Under the pieces are notes generated by a model. It searched no databases. It was not told where the DNA came from and was given only the letters and a program-made list of their open reading frames with translations. A DNA stretch of 64,000 nt, from assembly GCA_030828505.1 (NCBI GenBank), contig JAURCJ010000006.1, forward strand, positions 1 to 64,000. Reading direction: 5' to 3'. The position numbers and the translations under genes were made by a program. Positions 217-14,044 of the stretch are shown one piece after another (position 1 is the stretch's first letter; every line of letters begins with the position of its first letter). Source of the DNA: Alphaproteobacteria bacterium. GTDB taxonomy: Bacteria; Pseudomonadota; Alphaproteobacteria; TMED109.

Positions 217-1404
217 ATGAATAATAAAAATATTATTTTAAAAATTATATTTATTACACTTATTACTGTATTAAGTTCATCAATATCATACTCTAAAGAT
301 ACTATTAGAATTGGTACATTACTTCCATACTCAGGAGTTTACACAGTTTTAGGAGAAGAAATTACAAATGCAATGTCTTTAGCATTTGATGAAATAGATA
401 ATTTTATCAATGGTAAAACAATAGAAATTATTAAGGGGGATACTGAAGTAAAACCAAACATAGCTTTGCAAAAAAGTAGAAAACTAATTTCTTCAGATAA
501 AGTAGATATTCTTGTAGGCCCAGTTTCGTCTTCTGTTGCTTTAGCGTTACGTGATATAGTTGTTCAGACTAAAACACCATTAATAATTCCTAATGCTGGT
601 GCAAATGTACTTACTGATGAAAAGTGCTCAAAATTTATAACAAGAATTTCATTTTCTAATTATCAAATAAATGCTCCAATGGGAGAATGGTTAGCAAATC
701 AAGGTATAAAAACGGCTTTTTTATTAGCTCCTAATTATGCTGCAGGAAAAGAAATGATGAGTGCCTTTAAGGAAAAATTTGTTGCAGCAGGAGGTTCTAT
801 ATTAGGAGAAGAATATACACCCTTTAGAAAAACTAAGGATTTTGGACCTTATTTAGCTAGAGTAAAAAATAGTGGAGCAGATGCTGTTTATGTTTTTTAT
901 GCAGGTGGAGAGGCTATTAACTTTATAAAACAAGCTCATTCATTCGGCCTATCTAAAGTAATGAAACTAACTGGAGCAGGATGGACTACTTCTCCATTAT
1001 TTCTCCCAGCACAGAAAGATGCAGCAATAGGTTTTATTGGAAGTTTAAATTATGTACCATCAATAAATACAGAAGCAAATAAGGCTTTTATAAATTCTTA
1101 TAAAAGCAAATATGGAAGAATTCCTTCTGAATTTGCCGTTCAAGGATATGATTCTGGCAAAGTTATAATTGAAGCTATAAAATCTTTATCTGGAGATATG
1201 AGTAATAAAGAAAATCTTGCCGAAGCAATAAGAACCGTTTCAATAAATGGGCCTCGGGGACCTTTAACTATTGATAAAAATACTAATAATGTAATACAAA
1301 ATATATATATATTTGAGGTAATAGCAGGAGAAAATGGACCAGAATTAAAAGTTCTAGATACAATAAAAGCTGTTCAAGCACCAGGTGACAAGTGTAATAT
1401 ATAG
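217..1404 (+). CDS. ABC transporter substrate-binding protein, branched-chain amino acid / aromatic acid type (LivK family)
   Basis: Signal peptide, periplasmic binding protein fold (RIGTLLPYSGVYTVLGEE..., ILVGPVSSSVALALRD); followed by LivHMGF-like genes. Confidence 0.9.
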   Translation: MNNKNIILKIIFITLITVLSSSISYSKDTIRIGTLLPYSGVYTVLGEEITNAMSLAFDEIDNFINGKTIEIIKGDTEVKPNIALQKSRKLISSDKVDILVGPVSSSVALALRDIVVQTKTPLIIPNAGANVLTDEKCSKFITRISFSNYQINAPMGEWLANQGIKTAFLLAPNYAAGKEMMSAFKEKFVAAGGSILGEEYTPFRKTKDFGPYLARVKNSGADAVYVFYAGGEAINFIKQAHSFGLSKVMKLTGAGWTTSPLFLPAQKDAAIGFIGSLNYVPSINTEANKAFINSYKSKYGRIPSEFAVQGYDSGKVIIEAIKSLSGDMSNKENLAEAIRTVSINGPRGPLTIDKNTNNVIQNIYIFEVIAGENGPELKVLDTIKAVQAPGDKCNI

Positions 1405-1414
1405 GTCTTTATTT

Positions 1415-2263
1415 ATGTTATTAATTCAATTTCTTAATGCATTACAATTCAGTATGACTTTATTTTTATTAGCTGTCGGCTTAACTATAATATTTGGATT
1501 AATGAAAATAGTTAATTTGGCTCATGGAAGTTTATATATGATAGGGGCATATGTTGGCTTATCAATATGGACTTATTTTGACTCTTTTTGGTTGGCTCTT
1601 ATTTTTTCTCCTCTAATAACTGCATTAGTAGGAGCATTTTTGTATTATATATTATTCAGGCATATACAAAATGCAGACCCTATGAAGCAAGTATTACTTA
1701 CATTTGGATTAATCTATATTGGCTTAGACTCAGTTAGACTTATATGGGGTACAATGAGTCATTCTATATCAGCCCCAGAATTACTTTCAAAATCAATAAT
1801 ATTGATTAATAACCCTTATCCCTCATATAGATTATTTGTAATTTTTATAGGAATTCTCGTATTAATTTGTTTATATTTTATTTTGGAAAAAACAGTTATT
1901 GGAGCTAAAGTAAGAGCATCTGTAGATGACCCTGAAGCAGCAAAACTTCTTAAAATTAACACTGATAAAATCTTATTCTATACATTTTCATTTGGATGTG
2001 GTTTAGCTGGATTAGCCGGTATAACTGTAGCTCCAATATTAGGTGTAGAGCCAGGAATGGATATGGAAGTTTTGGTTTTAACTTTAATTGTAGTTGTAGT
2101 TGGCGGACCTGGAAGTTTAAAAGGAGCTTTAGTAGGCGCATTATTAATAGGATTTGTTGATAGTTTTGGTAAGGTATACATCCCGCAATTAGCTCAAATA
2201 ATAATATATGCTGTTATGGCATTAACGCTTTTATTTAGACCTGATGGATTGTATAAAAGATAA
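1415..2263 (+). CDS. Branched-chain amino acid-type ABC transporter permease (LivH family); start moved from 1385 to the ATG at 1415
   Basis: GLTIIFGLMKIVNLAHGSLYMIGAY and C-terminal VVGGPGSLKGALVGALLIG typical of LivH. Confidence 0.88.
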   Translation: MLLIQFLNALQFSMTLFLLAVGLTIIFGLMKIVNLAHGSLYMIGAYVGLSIWTYFDSFWLALIFSPLITALVGAFLYYILFRHIQNADPMKQVLLTFGLIYIGLDSVRLIWGTMSHSISAPELLSKSIILINNPYPSYRLFVIFIGILVLICLYFILEKTVIGAKVRASVDDPEAAKLLKINTDKILFYTFSFGCGLAGLAGITVAPILGVEPGMDMEVLVLTLIVVVVGGPGSLKGALVGALLIGFVDSFGKVYIPQLAQIIIYAVMALTLLFRPDGLYKR

Positions 2264-3219
2264 TGAGAGCAGTTAATTATAATCCTAAATTAAGATTTCA
2301 AATAATGATAATATTAATTTTATTATCAATTATATTTAATATTTTTGGAGGATACTTCACTAGATTTTTTGTAGCAGAAATAATAATTTTATCTATTTTT
2401 GCTATAAGTCTAGATTTCATTGCCTCTAGAGGAGGAATGGTCTCCTTAGGCCATGCTATGTTCTTAGGAATTGGAGCTTATGCTACAGCTATACTTTCTA
2501 TTAATTATGGGATTCCCCCCTTCTATGCTACATTTTTTTCAATTCTTATTGGTCTATTTATTGCTCTATTAATAGGTTATTTTATTGTACTACTAGATGG
2601 AATATTTTTTATAATGGTAACCTTAGCTCTGGGTGAAATGTTTCATGCTTGGGTATTCACTTCCGAATTATTAGGAGGTTCAGATGGCATAACGGGTATA
2701 ATGAGACCAGATCTATCTTTTTTAAAAATAGATTTAAATACACCAATAATTTTTTCTTTTTATACAATATTCTGGCTTATAATAGTTTATAATTTAATTT
2801 CTAGAATTACTGATGCTCCTCTTGGAAGAAATTTAGATGCCATAAGACAGAATAGTGAAAGAGTATCTGCAATAGGCGGTTATAAAAAAACATATAAAGC
2901 AATAGCATTTAGTATTTCTGCTGGCATTGCGTCTTTAGCAGGATCTTTATATGTTCAATTAAATGGGTTTATTTCTCCTGAACTTACTCATTGGACAGTA
3001 TCAGGTGAAGGTTTAATAATGATTATAGTGGGAGGAATTGGATCAATTTCTGGTGCTATATTAGGAGCTTCTGTAGTTCATATTATTCAGCATGAATTAT
3101 CAAATATAATCAATTGGTGGATGTTAGTAATTGGTTTTGGCTTTATATTAGTAGTATTATTTATGAAAGATGGTCTTTGGGGATTAATTGAAAGCATCAA
3201 AAAGAAATTAGGATACTAA
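2263..3219 (+). CDS. Branched-chain amino acid-type ABC transporter permease (LivM family)
   Basis: SRGGMVSLGHAMFLGIGAYATA; IVGGIGSISGAILGA. Confidence 0.9.
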   Translation: MRAVNYNPKLRFQIMIILILLSIIFNIFGGYFTRFFVAEIIILSIFAISLDFIASRGGMVSLGHAMFLGIGAYATAILSINYGIPPFYATFFSILIGLFIALLIGYFIVLLDGIFFIMVTLALGEMFHAWVFTSELLGGSDGITGIMRPDLSFLKIDLNTPIIFSFYTIFWLIIVYNLISRITDAPLGRNLDAIRQNSERVSAIGGYKKTYKAIAFSISAGIASLAGSLYVQLNGFISPELTHWTVSGEGLIMIIVGGIGSISGAILGASVVHIIQHELSNIINWWMLVIGFGFILVVLFMKDGLWGLIESIKKKLGY

Positions 3220-3954
3220 ATGGCATTAAAATTAACTAATTTATATAAATCATTTGGTTCTATTCGTGTATTAGAAGATATTAATATAATATCAAATAAG
3301 AAAGAATGTATAGCAATTATTGGACCAAATGGTGCTGGAAAAAGTACTCTTTTTAAAGTAATTTCAGGAATAGTAAAACAAGATATTGGTAATGTAGAAT
3401 TTAATAATAAAAATATTAATGAGCTAAATGTTGAGAAAAGAGCAAGATTAGGAATATCTCAAAGCTTTCAAAAAAATTCTTTATTTTTAGAAATGACGGT
3501 TAAAGAAAGTCTTATGCTTGCATGTAGTCATAAATATAAAACATCATTTAATTTAATTAAGCCATTGATAAAAAACAATTTTATTTCCGATGATGCAATA
3601 ATGATAGCAAAAGATATAGGTCTTGAAAACTATCTAGATGTACAGTCAGAATTTTTATCTTATGGTTTACAAAGACAATTAGAACTTGGAATAGCTATAG
3701 CTTGTAATCCTAAACTACTCTTACTAGATGAACCTACAGCAGGTATGAGTCCAGCAGAAACCAAAGATATAATTACATTAATTAGAAAACTGTCTAAAGA
3801 TTATTCAATTATAATAGTAGAGCATGATATGGAGGTAATATATAACTTAGCTGATAAAATTTATGTTTTAGATAGAGGAAAATTAATATTTGAAGGTAGT
3901 CCTAATGCAGTAAAGAACTCTAAATTAGTTCAAAAAGTATACTTAGGGATATAA
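3220..3954 (+). CDS. ABC transporter ATP-binding protein (LivG family)
   Basis: Walker A GPNGAGKST, Walker B LLLLDEPTAGMSP. Confidence 0.9.
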   Translation: MALKLTNLYKSFGSIRVLEDINIISNKKECIAIIGPNGAGKSTLFKVISGIVKQDIGNVEFNNKNINELNVEKRARLGISQSFQKNSLFLEMTVKESLMLACSHKYKTSFNLIKPLIKNNFISDDAIMIAKDIGLENYLDVQSEFLSYGLQRQLELGIAIACNPKLLLLDEPTAGMSPAETKDIITLIRKLSKDYSIIIVEHDMEVIYNLADKIYVLDRGKLIFEGSPNAVKNSKLVQKVYLGI

Positions 3955-3959
3955 TATAT

Positions 3960-4661
3960 ATGTCTATTCTTAATATTAAAAATCTAAATACTTATTATGG
4001 TAAAAGTCATATTTTACAGGGTGTTAATTTTAATTTAGATAAACCTGGTTGTTTAGCTTTATTAGGAAGAAATGGCGCTGGAAAAACAACTACTTTACGT
4101 TCTATAGTTAATTTAACCAGACCTGATTCTGGAGAAATTAATTTTAATGATCTTAATCTCAAAGATTTATCTACCTATGAAATCGCAGAAAAAGGACTTA
4201 CTATGGTGCCTGAAAATAGGGGCATGTTTTCATCACTATCAGTATTAGAAAGTCTTAATATAATAAATAATAATTATAATAATAGTGAATGGAACATTGA
4301 AAGGGTATTAGAATCATTTCCACAATTAAAAACTAAACTTAAAAATAGTTCTACTAGTTTATCAGGTGGAGAACAACAAATGCTTGCTATAAGTAAAGCC
4401 CTTCTTACAAACCCTAAACTTATATTATTAGATGAACCTACTCAAGGTCTTGCACCAAATATTGTTTTAGAATTAATAGAAATACTGAGAAAAATACTTA
4501 GCGAACATATTTCACTTTTAATTGTTGAACAGAATGTAAATATGGCATTAGAAATAGCCACGGAAGTTTCTATTCTTGGAAAAGGTGAAACAAAATGGAA
4601 CGGTACAAAAAAAGATTTTAAGAAAAATATAGCCTATCACAAAGAATGGATAGGCATATAA
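3960..4661 (+). CDS. ABC transporter ATP-binding protein (LivF family)
   Basis: Walker A GRNGAGKTT, LSGGEQQ, LILLDEPTQGLAP. Confidence 0.9.
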   Translation: MSILNIKNLNTYYGKSHILQGVNFNLDKPGCLALLGRNGAGKTTTLRSIVNLTRPDSGEINFNDLNLKDLSTYEIAEKGLTMVPENRGMFSSLSVLESLNIINNNYNNSEWNIERVLESFPQLKTKLKNSSTSLSGGEQQMLAISKALLTNPKLILLDEPTQGLAPNIVLELIEILRKILSEHISLLIVEQNVNMALEIATEVSILGKGETKWNGTKKDFKKNIAYHKEWIGI

Positions 4662-6092
4662 TTAAGACTTTAAATTAACATAGTCAAAGCCTATATCCAT
4701 ATTGTTTATACCTCTACTAGGAGGGGCAATCCATCCTGCAGTTTTATTAACTTCAACAACCTGAACCATTAAACTATTTATAAATTGCTTATCTTCATCA
4801 GAAGGCAGCCAAGCTGCAATCTTAGATTCAAAATCACTTTTTTGTAAAATCTTCCCATCAGGATTTACATCAACACCAGCCCATATTCCAATATTTCTTC
4901 TAAACCTTGTAGAGGGTAATTTTAATTGTATATCATGGCCAGCTTTTTTAATTAATCTATTCCACCTTTTTAAGCCAACTTCACAATCAGTAACGTACGC
5001 TCTTCTAGTAATTTCATTCATAGCATTCCTCATTGGTATTGTCTGAGTTTCTATAGTATTTTCCAATGATAATCCTTCAAATGTAAATGTTGAATTTTTT
5101 TCTGAATGGTCTTCATATCTCATTTCATCAGGTCTACCCTTTAGCCCATTGGCAAATGCAGTCGCAGAATTAGACGAAATTTCAGAACCAAACAAATCTA
5201 AAGAGGAAGAAAACCAAAAATTTATATATCTTTGAATAGTTTGAAGATCGATTGCCCCTGCATTTCTTACTGCATCAATTGAATCAGTTTTTAATTCGTT
5301 CATTACTTCAAGTGTTCTTTGTATCATCCTAGTTATTCCAGTTTCTCCCACCTGCATATGATGAGCCTCTTCAGTAAGCATAAATTGACACGTTCTTGCA
5401 AGTGGATCAAAACTGCTCTCTGCCAGAGATTTTAACTGGTACTTACCATCTCTATCAGTAAAATATGTAAACATGAAAAAACTTACCCAGTCTGTGATAG
5501 GTTCATTAAATGTTCCAAGTATTCTAGGATTATCAACGTCACCAGAATTACGCTCAAGTAGAGCTTCTGCTTCTTCTCTACCGTCTCGTCCAAAATACGC
5601 ATGTAATAAGTAAACCATAGCCCATAAATGTCTACCTTCCTCAACATTAACTTGAAATAAGTTTCTTAAATCAAATAAGGATGGACATGTTTTACCTAAT
5701 TCTCTTTGCTGTTCAACTGAAGCAGGCTCCGTATCTCCTTGAGTAACAATAAGTCTTCTTAAAATTGATCTATAATCTCCAGGAACTTGTTGCCAAACAG
5801 GCTTTCCAATATTATCACCGAAATGTATTTTTCTATCCACTACTTTATCATTTAAAAATATGCCCCACCTATATTCAGGCATTTTAACTTTTCCATAAGT
5901 AGCCCAACCGTCAGCATCAACAGATGTAGCAGTCCTTAAGTAAACATCAGAAGCCTGAAAACCCTCTGGGCCCATCTCTGTCCACCAATTTTTAAATTTA
6001 GGTTGCCAATGTTCTAAAGCTCTTTGTAACGACAAGTCAGTACTAAGATTTACATTATTAGGAATTTTTTCTTGATAGTTTAAATTTGTCAT
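4662..6092 (-). CDS. boxB: Benzoyl-CoA 2,3-epoxidase oxygenase subunit BoxB
   Basis: Di-iron ExxH motifs (EEGRH, EEAHH); recognisable BoxB N-terminus (LQRALEHWQPKFKNWWTEMGPEGFQASDVYLRTA); adjacent to boxC and boxR. Confidence 0.93.
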   Translation of the reverse strand: MTNLNYQEKIPNNVNLSTDLSLQRALEHWQPKFKNWWTEMGPEGFQASDVYLRTATSVDADGWATYGKVKMPEYRWGIFLNDKVVDRKIHFGDNIGKPVWQQVPGDYRSILRRLIVTQGDTEPASVEQQRELGKTCPSLFDLRNLFQVNVEEGRHLWAMVYLLHAYFGRDGREEAEALLERNSGDVDNPRILGTFNEPITDWVSFFMFTYFTDRDGKYQLKSLAESSFDPLARTCQFMLTEEAHHMQVGETGITRMIQRTLEVMNELKTDSIDAVRNAGAIDLQTIQRYINFWFSSSLDLFGSEISSNSATAFANGLKGRPDEMRYEDHSEKNSTFTFEGLSLENTIETQTIPMRNAMNEITRRAYVTDCEVGLKRWNRLIKKAGHDIQLKLPSTRFRRNIGIWAGVDVNPDGKILQKSDFESKIAAWLPSDEDKQFINSLMVQVVEVNKTAGWIAPPSRGINNMDIGFDYVNLKS

Positions 6093-6095
6093 TGT

Positions 6096-7745
6096 TTATA
6101 CCCTTTTATTATCAAATTTAGCTCTAGAACCCGTTCCAAAAAGTTTTAAAGCTCCTTTTTCACTTACAGCATTAGGTCTATTGAAGATCCAATTTTGCCA
6201 AGCTGTTAATCTTCCAAAAATTTTAGTTTCACATGTCTCCTTACCAGGAAATCTTAAATTAGCCTCTAAACCCGTTAAAGCATCCGGTGAAAAACTCGTT
6301 CTTTCTTCAACACTAAGCCTAATTTCATCACTCCAATCTAAATCATCAGGAATGACTGTGATTAATTCCTCTTCAAAGGCACTTTCAGCATCCAAAGGCT
6401 TTCCAATAATATTACGTAATTTTTTTAATTTTAGTTCATCATTATTAAATCTAGTTGCAAGTCTAGACATTCCATTTACCATCTCCAATGAAGCAAAATT
6501 TATATCACTTAATGTTATAAAAGGACCTTTAAGATCATCAGGCGACATAGCGTTATTAAGCATATAAGTCCTATCTGCAGCAAATAATAATTCTGCTAAA
6601 AGTCCCGAAAAACAACTATTATTATCAATAATTGTAAATATAGATCTAGAGGATAGGTCTAATCTTGATAAAGTTCTTCTGAGTAAACCAATTATTTCAT
6701 TTATTAACCAGACATCTTTATTTTTTTCTATAATAGAAGTTACATTTAAAATATCATCAGTACTTCCTTCAGATGTCATAGTTAATACGCCCACCTCTAA
6801 CTCATTAGTTCTAAGTAGTAAAATTAAATCCTCTAATTCCCTGGCAAATTTTAATGGCCACCAATCACATCCTTTTTTGCCTATATCCTCAAGGTTCAAC
6901 ACATCATTAGAAGTAGGCCCAATTATATGAATATTAGCTATCCTATCTTCTCTATTTATCTTAGCATTTAAGCAATCATAATTAATGCCCTCATTAGTAA
7001 TATTTCTATTAAGTTTATTAAGTTTGATACCCTCTTTACCATCACGCAATTTGACTGTACTAGTAATTTTTTTAACTCTTTCATCAATAAGATCTGCAAA
7101 TTTTGAAGGAGGAGCAATATAATCAACTAATTTCCAATCAACTGCTTTTTTTCCTCTTATACCATCTGCATTCGTACAAAATATATCTGCAAGATCCTTC
7201 CTTACTTTTCTCTTATCAATTAATCGCGTTACACCGCCAGTTCCAGGAAGAACTCCTAAGAGAGGAACTTCAGGTAAACTAACTGTACTAGATCTATCAT
7301 CTATTAGTAAAATTTCATCACATGCTAAAGCAACTTCATACCCTCCTCCGGCACAAATACCATTTACTGCCGCTATAAATTTTAAAGAACCGGACTCACT
7401 AGAATCCTCAAAGCCATTGCGTGTCTCATTAGTAAACTTACAAAAATTTACCTTCCAAGTATGTTCTGATTGACCGAGCATATAAATATTAGCACCAGCA
7501 GAGAAGTTTTTTTCTTGGTTTGAAGTTATAACTACAACTTTCACCTGTGGATGTTCGAATCTAATTCTTTGTACTATATCATTTAATTCGATATCCACTC
7601 CTAAGTCATAAGAATTTAGCTTTAAATCATAACCAGGTTTTATCCCATCTTTTTCAGACACATCTAGAAATAAAGTAGCTTTATTTTCTTTAATATCCAC
7701 TTTCCAGTGCTTATAATTATTAGGGTCTCTGTCGAAAGTTATCAT
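6096..7745 (-). CDS. boxC: 2,3-epoxybenzoyl-CoA dihydrolase BoxC (crotonase family); start moved from 7772 to the ATG at 7745
   Basis: Enoyl-CoA hydratase core (NFSAGANIYMLGQ, AAVNGICAGGGYEVALACDEI); ATG at 7745 is preceded by GGAGG; the 7772 start would overlap a predicted operator. Confidence 0.92.
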   Translation of the reverse strand: MITFDRDPNNYKHWKVDIKENKATLFLDVSEKDGIKPGYDLKLNSYDLGVDIELNDIVQRIRFEHPQVKVVVITSNQEKNFSAGANIYMLGQSEHTWKVNFCKFTNETRNGFEDSSESGSLKFIAAVNGICAGGGYEVALACDEILLIDDRSSTVSLPEVPLLGVLPGTGGVTRLIDKRKVRKDLADIFCTNADGIRGKKAVDWKLVDYIAPPSKFADLIDERVKKITSTVKLRDGKEGIKLNKLNRNITNEGINYDCLNAKINREDRIANIHIIGPTSNDVLNLEDIGKKGCDWWPLKFARELEDLILLLRTNELEVGVLTMTSEGSTDDILNVTSIIEKNKDVWLINEIIGLLRRTLSRLDLSSRSIFTIIDNNSCFSGLLAELLFAADRTYMLNNAMSPDDLKGPFITLSDINFASLEMVNGMSRLATRFNNDELKLKKLRNIIGKPLDAESAFEEELITVIPDDLDWSDEIRLSVEERTSFSPDALTGLEANLRFPGKETCETKIFGRLTAWQNWIFNRPNAVSEKGALKLFGTGSRAKFDNKRV

Positions 7746-7767
7746 AGTATCCTCCAATATACATGTG

Positions 7768-7781
7768 TGCAATATAATGCA
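7768..7781. promoter_or_regulatory. Putative BoxR operator upstream of boxCB (TGCA-N6-TGCA)
   Basis: TGCAATATAATGCA, lying between the boxR stop and the boxC ATG; matches the half-site spacing reported for BzdR/BoxR operators. Confidence 0.65.
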
Positions 7782-7799
7782 CTATCTAAAAATATCAAA

Positions 7800-8693
7800 T
7801 CAAAATAATTTAGTCTTTAAATTTTTATATGAATCTTGTATTGACTTATTTTCTGTATCAATAATTAAATCTGCTTTAGAGTAAAGCGCTACTCTTTCAT
7901 TCAATATATTATTTAAATCATCCATAGCTCTAGGATTTGAGCTCATTGGTCTTGAGTCACCTTGACTTAATACTCTTTCCATATGTTCACTAGGACTTGC
8001 TTTGATCCAAATAGTAAAATAATTATTTAATACATAATTATAAGTTTTATCCTCAGAAACTATACTTCCTCCTGCAAGAAGTATTAACTTAGTATTATTT
8101 TCATTTAACGATTTAACTACATCGAATTCAAAACGTCTATACATACCTTGTCCACCTAATTCAATAATTTCATTTATATTCATTCCTCCTAGTTTTTCTA
8201 TTTCACTAGTAGCTTCAAATAAAGGATAAGTGTATTCTTTGTGTAATAAATTACCTAGAGTAGACTTTCCTGCGCCTCTCAACCCAATTAAGGCAATTTT
8301 ATTCTTATTTTTTTTAGAATTGTTTTCTTTATAAATGTTATCAATTAATTCAAAAACTTTATTTTTTTGTGTTGAATTAAAACTTTTAATCTTATTATTT
8401 ATTAAGTTGGTTTCGATAACATCTTTATCATTATAAAAAAATTCATATGAAGATAAGTTTAATGCATATGCAATATTAGCAATTATAGATACGGTTGGGT
8501 TACCCTTACCACTTTCTAATTGAGCTAAATACCTTAGAGAAATGCCTGATTTATTTGCTAAAACTTGACGAGTGATCCCCCTTTTTAGTCTATATTTTTT
8601 TACAAGTAAGCCAATATTAATTTCATTATTTCCATTTCTAGGGTTTGTTGAATCTAATATAATATTTTTCTTATATTCAGCTATATTATTCAT
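7800..8693 (-). CDS. boxR: BoxR/BzdR-type transcriptional regulator: XRE-type HTH fused to a shikimate kinase-like domain
   Basis: N-terminal HTH (LVKKYRLKRGITRQVLANKSGISLRYLAQLESGKGNPTVSI) and C-terminal P-loop kinase-like domain (IGLRGAGKSTLG). Confidence 0.93.
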   Translation of the reverse strand: MNNIAEYKKNIILDSTNPRNGNNEINIGLLVKKYRLKRGITRQVLANKSGISLRYLAQLESGKGNPTVSIIANIAYALNLSSYEFFYNDKDVIETNLINNKIKSFNSTQKNKVFELIDNIYKENNSKKNKNKIALIGLRGAGKSTLGNLLHKEYTYPLFEATSEIEKLGGMNINEIIELGGQGMYRRFEFDVVKSLNENNTKLILLAGGSIVSEDKTYNYVLNNYFTIWIKASPSEHMERVLSQGDSRPMSSNPRAMDDLNNILNERVALYSKADLIIDTENKSIQDSYKNLKTKLF

Positions 8694-8721
8694 TTACAAC
8701 TTTCAAAACTAATGATAAATA

Positions 8722-8745
8722 ATATATGCATTATAGTGCATATAT
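8722..8745. promoter_or_regulatory. Putative BoxR operator in the boxR/flavodoxin divergent region
   Basis: Perfect 9-bp inverted repeat ATATATGCA-TTATAG-TGCATATAT containing TGCA-N6-TGCA; right arm overlaps a candidate -10 TATAAT (8743-8748). Confidence 0.7.
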
Positions 8746-8781
8746 AATGTAAATGTAAACAATTTTAGTAAGGATTTTTTT

Positions 8782-9243
8782 ATGAACTCTGAAAAACTTT
8801 TAATTTTAGTAGCTACTATGACTGGAACAGCTCTTATGGCTGCTGAAGATATCGCAGAATATTGTAATGAAATTAATTTAGATACAGATATTATTGAAAT
8901 AGATAATTCAGATTTAGACATTTTAATTAAAGCAAAAAGTCCAGTTTTAATATGTTCCTCTACTTATGGTCAGGGAGATGTTCCTGACAGTGCTCAAGAT
9001 TTTTATAATAAATTAAAAGAACTATCACCTGATTTAAGTCATATTAATTATGCTTTATTTGGTTTAGGTGATATGACATATAGAGATACTTTTGCTTATG
9101 GAGGAAAAAAATTTTCTAATTTGTTAGATTCTCTTAATGCTACTAAAATTGGAGATGCATTTTATCATGATGCTTCAGATGGAAGTTTACCGGAAGAAGT
9201 CGCTGTAGAATGGTTTAAAAATAATATTAAAGAACAATTATAA
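8782..9243 (+). CDS. Flavodoxin-like protein (MioC/flavodoxin family)
   Basis: FMN-binding P-loop ATMTGTALMAAEDI; SSTYGQGDVPDSA; FGLGDMTYRDTFAYGGK. Confidence 0.85.
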   Translation: MNSEKLLILVATMTGTALMAAEDIAEYCNEINLDTDIIEIDNSDLDILIKAKSPVLICSSTYGQGDVPDSAQDFYNKLKELSPDLSHINYALFGLGDMTYRDTFAYGGKKFSNLLDSLNATKIGDAFYHDASDGSLPEEVAVEWFKNNIKEQL

Positions 9244-9246
9244 ATA

Positions 9247-10776
9247 ATGAGCAAATTTACAAAAAAAAACTATAATGCAGCATATGACCTTTTATACAGG
9301 AATATTATTAAAAACCCTGATAAAATAGCTTTTATAGATAATAACGAAAAAATTACATACAGTGAACTTTATCATAAAGTTAAGGCTTTTTCATATTCTA
9401 TAAAAAACAGCAATATTGCTGTTAATGATAGAGTGATTATATGTATGGATGATAATATATGCTACCCTATAGTATTTTTAGGCCTTATTTGGTCAGGCAT
9501 CATTCCAATCTGTATTAATACTCTATTGCCTAGTAAAGATTACAAATATATGATTGAAGACTCAACTGCAAAAGCAGTAATTATATCAGATCATTTAATT
9601 GATAAATTCAAACCTATTATGAGTGAAAATAAAGATACTTTAATTATTATAAATGATGATAAAGGTCTTAAAAGTTTAATTAATCAAACATCAGAATACA
9701 TAGAGGAACCATATAACTCATATGAAAATGATACAGCTTTCTGGTTATACTCTTCTGGTTCTACAGGCTCTCCTAAGGGAACTCTTCACATGCATAAAAG
9801 TTTAATTGCAACATCAAATAATTATGCAAAAACAGTATTAAATATTACTGATAATGATATTTGCTTTTCAGCTGCAAAATTATTTTTTGCTTATGGGCTT
9901 GGCAATGCTCTTACATTCCCTATGAGCGTAGGAGCTACATCTATACTTATGGCAGATAGACCAACTCCTGAATCTGTTTCCAATATTATTAAAAAGTATT
10001 CTGTTACCTTATTTTTTGGAGTCCCTACTCTCTATGCTGCTTTACTAAATGCAAATATGAGTTCAGATCTTTTCAAATCATTAAGATTATCTATATCAGC
10101 AGGTGAAGCTTTACCCGCAAATTTATATGAAAAATGGTATAAATTTTCAGGAGTACAGATACTAGACGGCATTGGTTCTACTGAGATGCTTCATATATTT
10201 ATTTCAAATACGATTGATAATATTACTCCTGGGGCCTCTGGTAAGCCAGTAAAAGGTTATAAAGCGAGGCTTATAAAAGATGACGGAAAATTAGCAAATG
10301 ATAATGAAATTGCGGAATTAGAAATAAATGGCCCTTCAAGTGCAAGTAGCTATTGGAATAAACCAGAAAAATCTAATTTAACATTTAATGGTCAATGGAC
10401 AAAAACCGGTGATAAATATATACGAAATTCAGATGGAATATATACATATTGTGGACGAGCTGATGATATGATGAAAGTTTCAGGGCAATATGTATCCCCT
10501 TTTGAAGTTGAAGCAGCTTTACAAACGCATGAAGAAGTATTGGAAGCTGCGGTCGTAGCAAATAGAGATATTGATAATTTGATAAAACCAAAAGCTTATA
10601 TCATACTAAAAACTAAATCAAAAATAATAAAAAACATAGAGCTAGCACTTACAAATCACGTTAAAGAGCAATTAACACCATTTAAATATCCACGTTGGTA
10701 TGAATTTGTAGACGAGCTACCTAAAACAGCAACCGGTAAAATACAGAGATATAAATTAAGAAAAAATTATGAATGA
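9247..10776 (+). CDS. Benzoate-CoA ligase family protein (ANL superfamily)
   Basis: AMP-binding motif YSSGSTGSPKGTLHMH; GIGSTEMLHIFISN; C-terminal PKTATGKIQRYKLR; box cluster context. Confidence 0.87.
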   Translation: MSKFTKKNYNAAYDLLYRNIIKNPDKIAFIDNNEKITYSELYHKVKAFSYSIKNSNIAVNDRVIICMDDNICYPIVFLGLIWSGIIPICINTLLPSKDYKYMIEDSTAKAVIISDHLIDKFKPIMSENKDTLIIINDDKGLKSLINQTSEYIEEPYNSYENDTAFWLYSSGSTGSPKGTLHMHKSLIATSNNYAKTVLNITDNDICFSAAKLFFAYGLGNALTFPMSVGATSILMADRPTPESVSNIIKKYSVTLFFGVPTLYAALLNANMSSDLFKSLRLSISAGEALPANLYEKWYKFSGVQILDGIGSTEMLHIFISNTIDNITPGASGKPVKGYKARLIKDDGKLANDNEIAELEINGPSSASSYWNKPEKSNLTFNGQWTKTGDKYIRNSDGIYTYCGRADDMMKVSGQYVSPFEVEAALQTHEEVLEAAVVANRDIDNLIKPKAYIILKTKSKIIKNIELALTNHVKEQLTPFKYPRWYEFVDELPKTATGKIQRYKLRKNYE

Positions 10777-11539
10777 AATAAACGATAATTTAGTAATTAA
10801 TGGTATTAGCATTGAAATTAAATCACTTATACATAAAAATTCTAGCTTAGAACCAATAATTTTTTTACACGAAGGTCTTGGGTCCATATCATTATGGAAA
10901 AGCTTTCCAGAAAAAATTTATAACTTAACAAAACGTGATGTAGTAATTTACTCAAGAGTTGGTATGGGAAATTCTTCAGCAATAACAAAACCTAGAAAAA
11001 CTGACTATATGCACTATGAAGCTAACTATTTTCTTCCAAAAATTTTAAATTATTTAAAGATAAATTCACCTATTTTACTTGGCCATTCTGATGGGGCTTC
11101 TATAGCATTAATTTACACTGGTAGTGGCAATAAAGTAAAATCAATGGTTTTAGAAGCCCCTCATGTTTTTGTTGAAAAAGTTTCTATTAAAGGCATACAG
11201 GATGCTAAAAAATTATGGAAAAACAGTGATTTAAGAGATAAACTTAGTAAGTATCATAATGATCCAGATGGAGCGTTTAATGGTTGGTGTAATGTTTGGC
11301 TTTCTAAAGAATTTATTAATTGGAACATAGAAAATTATTTAAGCAAAATAAATTGTCCTATTCTATTAATTCAAGGAAAGCAGGATACTTATGGAACAAT
11401 CAAACAACTTGAAAGCATAGAAAATTATACTAATGGCTTTACAAAGAGATTTGAGTTAGAGAACTGTGGACACAGTCCTCATACTCAATATCCAAAAGAA
11501 GTTGCAACTAATATTAATGATTTTTTAATTAATAATTAG
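10769..11539 (+). CDS. Alpha/beta hydrolase associated with the box cluster
   Basis: [12 protein letters not shown], nucleophile elbow LGHSDGAS, catalytic His NCGHSPH; overlaps the upstream ligase by ATGAATGA. Confidence 0.82.
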
Positions 11540-12954
11540 GCAGATACAGATGGTAAATTTGCTAAAGCCATGGCTACTTCACTTTCATCATAGTCTTGAT
11601 CTTTAAGTTTACCACCAAAATAATCTGTATAAGCTTGCATATCAAAATGGCCATGACCACATAAATTAAATAATATAGTTTTGTTTTGTCCTTCTTCTTT
11701 AGCTTTTAAAGCCTCAACAATAGCCCCTTTTACAGCATGATTTGCCTCTGGAGCAGGCAATATACCTTCAGCCTTAGCAAATGTTACACCTGCTTCAAAA
11801 CACTCTAACTGTTTATAAGAAGTACACTCAATTTCATCTTCATTAGCTAAATGACTAACTAATGGAGACATACCATGATATCTTAAACCACCAGCATGAA
11901 AACCAGGCGGTACAAAAGCTGATCCTAAGGTATGCATTTTTACTAATGGAGTTAAATGTCCAGTATCACCAAAATCATAGGCATATTTTCCTTTAGTTAA
12001 AGTTGGGCAATTAGCTGGTTCTACTGCAACAATTCTAGTTTTACTTTCTCCTCTTAAATTTCTTCCTATAAAAGGAAAAGCTATACCAGCAAAATTAGAT
12101 CCCCCTCCTGTACAACCCACTATTACATCAGGCTCATCACCAGCAATCTCTAATTGCTTCATACTCTCTTGACCAATAATAGTTTGATGCAAAAGAACAT
12201 GATTTAAAACACTACCTAATGCATATTTAGTATCATCTCTTTGAGCAGCCATTTCTACAGCTTCCGATATTGCTATACCAAGACTACCAGTACTATCTGG
12301 ACTATCTTTTAAAATTGCCTTACCAGATTCTGTCTCATTACTTGGGCTAGCAACACATCTAGCACCAAAACTTTCCATTAATGCTCTTCTATAAGGCTTT
12401 TGATTGAAACTAACCTTAACCATATAAACGTCTACTTCTAAACCAAATATAGAACCAGCAAAAGCTAGCGAAGATCCCCACTGTCCTGCACCTGTTTCTG
12501 TCGTTAATCTTTTTACACCTTCTTCTTTATTATAATATGCTTGGGGAACTGCTGTATTAGGCTTATGGCTACCAGATGGGCTTACACCTTCATATTTGTA
12601 ATAAATTTTAGCTGGAGTATCTAAAGCTTTTTCTAACTTTCTCGCTCTATATAGAGGACTTGGTCTCCATTGCCTATATATTTCTCTAACCTGATCAGGA
12701 ATTTCGATTTCCCTATCTGTACTCACTTCTTGCATAATTAATTCCATTGGAAAAAGAGGAGCTAGATCCTCCGGTCCAATAGGTTCTCCTGTTCCAGGAT
12801 TTAATGGAGGCGCCAATGGAGTTTTTAAATCAGAACAAATATTATACCAATGTGTTGGCATTTCATGTTCATTTAATAAAATTTTTACTCTTTCATTTTC
12901 ATAATTAGTTTGATCTAACGCAGAAAGTACATCCTGCTCTCCCTTTTTAAACAT
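11536..12954 (-). CDS. TrpB2-like pyridoxal-phosphate-dependent enzyme (tryptophan synthase beta-like)
   Basis: [17 protein letters not shown] (PLP lysine), [20 protein letters not shown]. Confidence 0.87.
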
Positions 12955-12973
12955 CTACATCTCCCTGTAAATT

Positions 12974-14044
12974 TTATTTTTTGGATTTAACCCATATACC
13001 TTTATCATGCAATAATTTTATCTGTTTATCAATTACTTTAGTTTTATATTCCTTATGTTTCATTGGAATTCTATCAAGGTACAAATTCTTAGGATAAATA
13101 GGATCTTTATATAGTAGCTGATATAGCTCAGTTCTAATATCTTTCATCCAATTATCCCATTGAGCATTTTCACGATGAAACCTTAATGCTTCTATATCAA
13201 TCACTCCTGAAACATAAGTCGAAGATCCACCATAATCCTGTCTACCTACTATTTTTCCTTTATAGTCAATTATATAAGATCTACCTCCAAAAGTATCTAT
13301 CGGTGTGTCACCCTCTTTATGTAAATAATAAGTTCCCATGTTAGGAGCTAAAACATACATATTATTATCTAAGGCTCTAGCCCTACTCTGTATCTCAAAC
13401 ATATCATTACCTGTAGCAGGATGTGGATAAGAAGCTCTATAAACTATTTCAGCACCATTTAAAGCTAAAGCTCTAGCATTTTCTGGGTAAGAGCCTTCAT
13501 TAGCCATCATAATTCCTAATCTTCCAATATCGGTTTCTACAACTGGCCAAAATGCATCTAAATTATTACCATATTTTTCAATCCACCAATCATATATATC
13601 ATGTGGACAAACAGAATGTTCTACTGGAAATAATGGAGAAACCTTATAATGAACCAAAATTACTTCACCTGAAGGGTCTATAATAAAGCCACAATTAAAA
13701 AACCTATTTGGCCAATCTGGATGTCTAGCTTTAGCTTGTGCAATGATATAACTATTATATTCTCTAGCTATGCCTCCTAACATATCTGTTTCCCAACCTG
13801 GGATGTCAATACAACATGTTTTTGCAAAATCTTCATGTTCAGCATCTAAAACTTCATCATTAAAACCTTGTAATGCACCCTCAGGAACAGCTATTAATCT
13901 CACAGGAATATCCAAACTCGAAAGCCATGATGCAGCTTTAGTTAAATGTTTTATGTGTGTTAAATTATGTCTTATATCAGACCTATGTCTGATACCTCTA
14001 ACTGTAGGAATTAATCCTACAGCAGTATACGGTTTAATACTCAT
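12974..14044 (-). CDS. Nitrilase/aliphatic-amidase superfamily protein with Ala at the catalytic Cys position
   Basis: VPEGAL (Glu), HYKVSP (Lys), but MMANEGSYPE where amidases read ICDDGNYPE. Confidence 0.8.
   Translation of the reverse strand: MSIKPYTAVGLIPTVRGIRHRSDIRHNLTHIKHLTKAASWLSSLDIPVRLIAVPEGALQGFNDEVLDAEHEDFAKTCCIDIPGWETDMLGGIAREYNSYIIAQAKARHPDWPNRFFNCGFIIDPSGEVILVHYKVSPLFPVEHSVCPHDIYDWWIEKYGNNLDAFWPVVETDIGRLGIMMANEGSYPENARALALNGAEIVYRASYPHPATGNDMFEIQSRARALDNNMYVLAPNMGTYYLHKEGDTPIDTFGGRSYIIDYKGKIVGRQDYGGSSTYVSGVIDIEALRFHRENAQWDNWMKDIRTELYQLLYKDPIYPKNLYLDRIPMKHKEYKTKVIDKQIKLLHDKGIWVKSKK

Follow-up and report, generated by a model that had tools for sequence, protein, structure and literature searches.

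Predicted BoxR operators on both sides of boxR in the box gene cluster of an uncultured marine alphaproteobacterial lineage

Gene content and predicted promoters of the locus

The window analysed here, i.e. the whole stretch of 64,000 nucleotides, carries near its beginning a gene cluster for aerobic benzoyl-CoA degradation (box) together with the gene of its putative repressor. The features of the cluster are, in order of position:

217..4661, plus strand: livKHMGF-type ABC transporter genes (PF13458 for the binding protein)
4662..6092, minus strand: boxB, benzoyl-CoA 2,3-epoxidase oxygenase subunit (TIGR03225, 736.9 bits, cut-off 499)
6096..7745, minus strand: boxC (TIGR03222, 812.6 bits, cut-off 712)
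7765..7784, no strand assigned: predicted operator site A in the gap between boxR and boxC, at the promoter of boxC (core TGCAATATAATGCA at 7768-7781)
7771..7776, minus strand: predicted boxC -10 box TATATT, inside site A
7793..7798, minus strand: predicted boxC -35 box TTGATA
7800..8693, minus strand: boxR, HTH plus shikimate-kinase-like repressor of 297 aa, ATG at 8693
8722..8745, no strand assigned: ATATATGCA-TTATAG-TGCATATAT, predicted operator site B in the promoter region between the divergent genes boxR and fldX
8730..8735, minus strand: predicted boxR -10 box TATAAT, inside site B
8743..8748, plus strand: TATAAT proposed earlier as -10 box of the fldX operon, overlapping the palindrome by 3 bp
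8754..8759, minus strand: predicted boxR -35 box TTTACA
8782..9243, plus strand: fldX, which opens the divergent operon and encodes a short MioC-like flavodoxin (PF00258, E=3e-22)
9247..10776, plus strand: bcl, benzoate-CoA ligase (TIGR02262, 657.9 bits, cut-off 375)
10769..11539, plus strand: alpha/beta hydrolase (PF00561)

The deduced BoxR protein matched the profile NF006015 with 293 bits (cut-off 204), so that BoxR, BoxC, BoxB and the ligase all exceed their curated NCBIfam cut-offs. It combines an N-terminal HTH_3 domain (PF01381, residues 31-84) with a C-terminal SKI domain (PF01202, residues 139-289), and its Walker A motif GLRGAGKS (137-144) is kept in 11 BoxR sequences except for S/T at the last position and is also found in locus L169. 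Domain architecture, Walker A motif and cluster context all assign the window regulator to the BoxR/BzdR subfamily. For boxC, the ATG at 7745 with GGAGGA upstream was the best start codon; a mechanically chosen TTG start at 7772 would overlap site A. Going by PMC6449761, the alpha/beta hydrolase could be the 3-hydroxyadipyl-CoA lactonase that occurs in box clusters; the ABC transporter is a possible benzoate importer. The arrangement boxR-boxC-boxB plus fldX-bcl-hydrolase was found in all 11 boxR-bearing genomes of the family. Beside the cluster, a TrpB-like enzyme and a nitrilase-type amidase (11536-14044) show 94-99% identity in same-genus relatives, an unusually strong conservation; the neighboring BoxR reaches 65-81%.

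boxR and fldX are separated by an intergenic gap of 88 bp, whose best predicted promoter is that of boxR on the minus strand, TTTACA-18 bp-TATAAT (8759 to 8730). Its TTTACA with a spacing of 18 is kept in the window and four same-genus relatives. For boxC, TTGATA-16 bp-TATATT (7798 to 7771) was predicted. The TATAAT at 8743-8748, taken as a -10 box in a previous reading made from the sequence only, is present and does overlap the palindrome, but it is weak as a -10 box, since relatives do not keep it and its best -35 partner reaches only 9/12. The minus-strand TATAAT inside the palindrome is the better-supported -10 box. If fldX has its own plus-strand promoter there, this must lie in the same 88-bp gap; it is not well defined.

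Two TGCA-N6-TGCA palindromes flank boxR

Site B lies within the boxR-fldX gap, and its arms form a perfect 9-bp inverted repeat; both the palindrome at 8722-8745 and its placement between boxR and the divergent flavodoxin/ligase operon had been described in the sequence-only reading and were confirmed. The spacer is near-symmetric, the dyad being broken only by its outermost pair (T/G). In the window, the bare pattern TGCA-N6-TGCA occurs twice (1.0 expected; 25 of 100 shuffles reach this number), and counting it was therefore rejected as proof of site B, as it is not significant. Palindromes with 9-bp arms and a 6-nt loop were found three times (1.05 expected), and 92 of 20000 shuffles of the 88-bp gap yielded one. 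Judged from the sequence alone, site B is modestly unusual in AT-rich DNA, which is suggestive only; it becomes convincing because it is conserved among relatives.

The second TGCA-N6-TGCA of the window (7768-7781) is located just upstream of boxC. The previous reading did not include this site A, which belongs to the same regulatory system as site B. With a matrix built from the family sites, the scores of the two operators in the window are 28.7 and 21.5, whereas no other position exceeds 8.4. The matrix scan hence gave only two operator sites in the window, 959 bp apart and with one strong site per promoter, and no operator-like site at the start of the ABC transporter genes.

The distance between both sites (from 7768 to 8727 in the window) is 957-960 bp in 10 of the 11 boxR-bearing family genomes (window and loci L036-L045) and 939 bp in the remaining one (L039); it varies among distant species. 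The components of the distance vary though the total is nearly constant, with few independent lineages. Permutation of the components gave p ~0.13 for all lineages and 0.0004 only without the outlier. A looping constraint is not claimed here, because the test was not significant with all lineages kept.

Conservation in the own genome, the family and distant BoxR loci

In the own genome assembly (1.44 Mb, ~70% complete, from which further sites may be missing), 20 exact copies of TGCA-N6-TGCA were detected. The 18 copies other than the box sites are without exception located within ORFs, and the spacer NTATAN is confined to the two box sites. The weakest of the 18 cases is C9:69950 near a tRNA: it was rejected as an intergenic site, as it lies in the 3′ end of an ORF of 83 aa, the start of which resembles a signal peptide, and is not located at a promoter. 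Equal frequency of the pattern at unrelated promoters, the check formulated with the earlier reading, was thereby looked for genome-wide and not found. On the same contig C9, a SAM-I/IV riboswitch (L051:1784-1882) precedes a 182-aa ORF, which by its sequence may encode an OsmC-type protein.

Within the family, boxR is present in 11 of 28 genomes, the window's own included, and these 11 span four genera. Named relatives such as TMED109, MarineAlpha9_Bin3, SP299 and AG-390-K05 are MAGs and single cells, and the host is therefore an uncultured marine alphaproteobacterial lineage. The palindrome was found in both intergenic regions of each of the 11 genomes, so that the motif search of related genomes suggested previously recovered the site in every relative with boxR. 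Of the eight half-site letters, 7-8 are matched in site B and 6-8 in site A. The TATA core is invariant in all 22 family sites, while the flanking intergenic sequence is variable. With both strands counted, one half-site always keeps the G and A of TGCA, and the opposite half-site the corresponding T and C; at the other half-site positions, at most a fifth of the 22 sites deviate.

To cover a broader range, 57 BoxR loci from the class and the phylum were sampled, and TGCA pairs were counted for spacings from 0 to 30. The largest excess was obtained for the 6-base spacing, with 32 pairs seen and 5.2 expected. A strong site (>10 bits) was present upstream of boxR in 58 of 70 named distant BoxR loci, of which 10 matches are partly circular, as the matrix used includes 18 sites from the same loci; in shuffled controls, the best score averaged -2.8 with a maximum of 3.9. 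The N6 sites near boxR in distant loci mostly share the NTATAN spacer, and L177 (Rhodocyclaceae) carries the 16-bp core of site B, ATGCATTATAGTGCAT, letter for letter. An enrichment of TGCA-N8-TGCA near distant boxR genes was set aside as coding conservation: most of these matches recur ~250 bp past boxR in near-identical form (AACTGCACGACGCCGTGCAGCG) inside the boxC reading frame.

Sites A and B as probable BoxR operators

TGCA repeats, mainly of the form ATGCACTATAGTGCAT, are the published binding sites of BoxR and BzdR (PMC6449761), and the core of site B matches this BoxR consensus at 15 of 16 positions. Also, the predicted -10 boxes of boxR and boxC lie inside sites B and A, as expected of BoxR operators; multiple sites 3-5 helical turns apart, which are typical of them, were not found. 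Based on the BoxR profile match, the match to the published motif and the conservation in all relatives with boxR, which support the operator interpretation already given for site B, we regard it as very probable that both sites are operators for BoxR, repressing boxCB, boxR and fldX-bcl-hydrolase, and that repression is relieved by benzoyl-CoA.

Three other explanations were weighed. Firstly, the dyad could serve another TGCA-recognising box regulator, e.g. of the XylS/BenR type or a second XRE protein. XylS/BenR sites do contain TGCA (PMC6449761, PMC6678401) and share the 6-nt spacing, but they are TGCA-N6-GGNTA repeats, i.e. not dyads, and belong to a regulator family different from that of BoxR. 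Since, moreover, boxR is located directly between both sites in all 11 genomes and the motif also stands beside boxR in distant groups, this is very unlikely. Secondly, the site might be conserved only as overlapping -10 elements on both strands; its most constant part, the core TATAAT/TATAGT, does read as a -10 hexamer on both strands. The TGCA half-sites, however, lie mostly outside the -10 box and are conserved as a dyad, and the enrichment of the N6 dyad near boxR in distant groups makes an origin without a regulator equally improbable. Finally, that AT-rich intergenic DNA formed an inverted repeat around a -10 element by chance can practically be dismissed: 64 kb should hold roughly one TGCA-N6-TGCA and one 9/6 palindrome, but here two sites flank boxR, shuffles of each intergenic region give one in 59 and 110 of 20000 cases, the sites persist in 11 of 11 relatives from four genera despite variable flanks, and they match the published consensus.

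For BoxR as the regulator, the simplest mechanism would be steric repression of three promoters from two operators. A BoxR dimer would bind each TGCA-N6-TGCA dyad via the N-terminal HTH, thereby covering the -10 box of boxR at site B and that of boxC at site A, and the same site B would also block the divergent fldX-bcl-hydrolase promoter. Benzoate entering the cell would be converted to benzoyl-CoA, which would bind to the shikimate-kinase-like C-terminal domain and cause BoxR to release the DNA. This release would turn on boxCB (oxygenase), fldX (electron carrier) and the ligase genes together, with boxR being autoregulated. That BoxR binds and represses, that benzoyl-CoA is the inducer and where precisely the promoters lie are points that we infer. 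In the case of the dimeric repressor BzdR, benzoyl-CoA causes the release, for which the accessory sites are needed (PMC6678401); the window BoxR would therefore either need none, or the two sites would cooperate across 959 bp.

Comparison with known systems

The operators are of a known type in a new lineage. Like the BoxR operators of Betaproteobacteria (Suvorova and Gelfand 2019, PMC6449761), they consist of a TGCA-N6-TGCA dyad with a TATA core beside boxR, and the divergent organisation of boxR-boxCB and ligase genes is also shared. In Betaproteobacteria, however, several sites are 3-5 turns apart, whereas the lineage of the window has one per promoter, with the second at the distance given above on the far side of boxR. 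It further differs in being a low-GC marine alphaproteobacterial lineage with fldX present and boxA absent. In the PN promoter of Azoarcus, TGCA-N6-TGCA is likewise found in the BzdR operators OR2 and OR3, the core promoter is covered by OR1, as the predicted -10 boxes are by the window sites, and the regulator has the same architecture (PMC6678401). In contrast to Azoarcus, where the tandem array OR1-OR3 controls anaerobic bzd genes, the window has no such array and carries aerobic box genes.

Probable replacement of BoxA by a flavodoxin

In the 28 family genomes, many of them incomplete, no TIGR03224 match over the cut-off was obtained for BoxA, while boxB and boxC are intact; none of the eleven family box clusters contains boxA. 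The BoxA reductase, whose presence is the standard criterion for BoxAB, is thus lacking from what was found in the window family. Among 54 box loci with a visible boxB neighbor, 31 have boxA only, 18 flavodoxin only, three neither and two both. The two loci with both (L182, L188) each carry a second boxB. Clusters with fldX include the window (8782-9243), L036-L045, L139, L140, L156, L170, L181 and L198.

In a BoxB tree (quick search, SH-aLRT support only), all 17 BoxB proteins of fldX clusters, which originate from the marine family, other Alphaproteobacteria, Betaproteobacteria and one Acidobacteria MAG, group together on the same side of a branch with full support. To this fldX side also belong the second BoxB of L182 and that of L188 (partial), whose boxA-linked copies are placed on the other. 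Flavodoxin and BoxA hence nearly exclude each other, tracking two BoxB clades. One of the 18 flavodoxin-only loci, L149 of Pacificoceanicola onchidii (Roseobacteraceae), has the gene of a distant flavodoxin (35% identity) immediately following boxB (L149:3537-3995); no boxA was detectable, and the BoxB of L149 sits inside the boxA side of the tree. L149 therefore appears to be an independent swap of flavodoxin for BoxA.

This gene content, i.e. the near-mutual exclusion together with the BoxB clades, suggests FldX as electron carrier of BoxB. It is probable, with less assurance than for the operators, that FldX, as a dedicated flavodoxin, replaces BoxA as electron donor to a distinct BoxB clade and is fed by a housekeeping reductase, with L149 having apparently swapped independently. 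In the literature searched, no paper on such a replacement was found.

Conclusions

By the sites described here, the BoxR/benzoyl-CoA switch, which has been described mainly from Betaproteobacteria, is extended to an uncultured marine alphaproteobacterial lineage with small genomes, and coordinated, inducible use of aromatic acids is supported for this lineage. The flavodoxin-for-BoxA pattern is more interesting than the operator itself, as the genes under this control suggest a benzoyl-CoA epoxidase that works with a flavodoxin and without BoxA, and thereby raise a question of enzymology that is directly testable.
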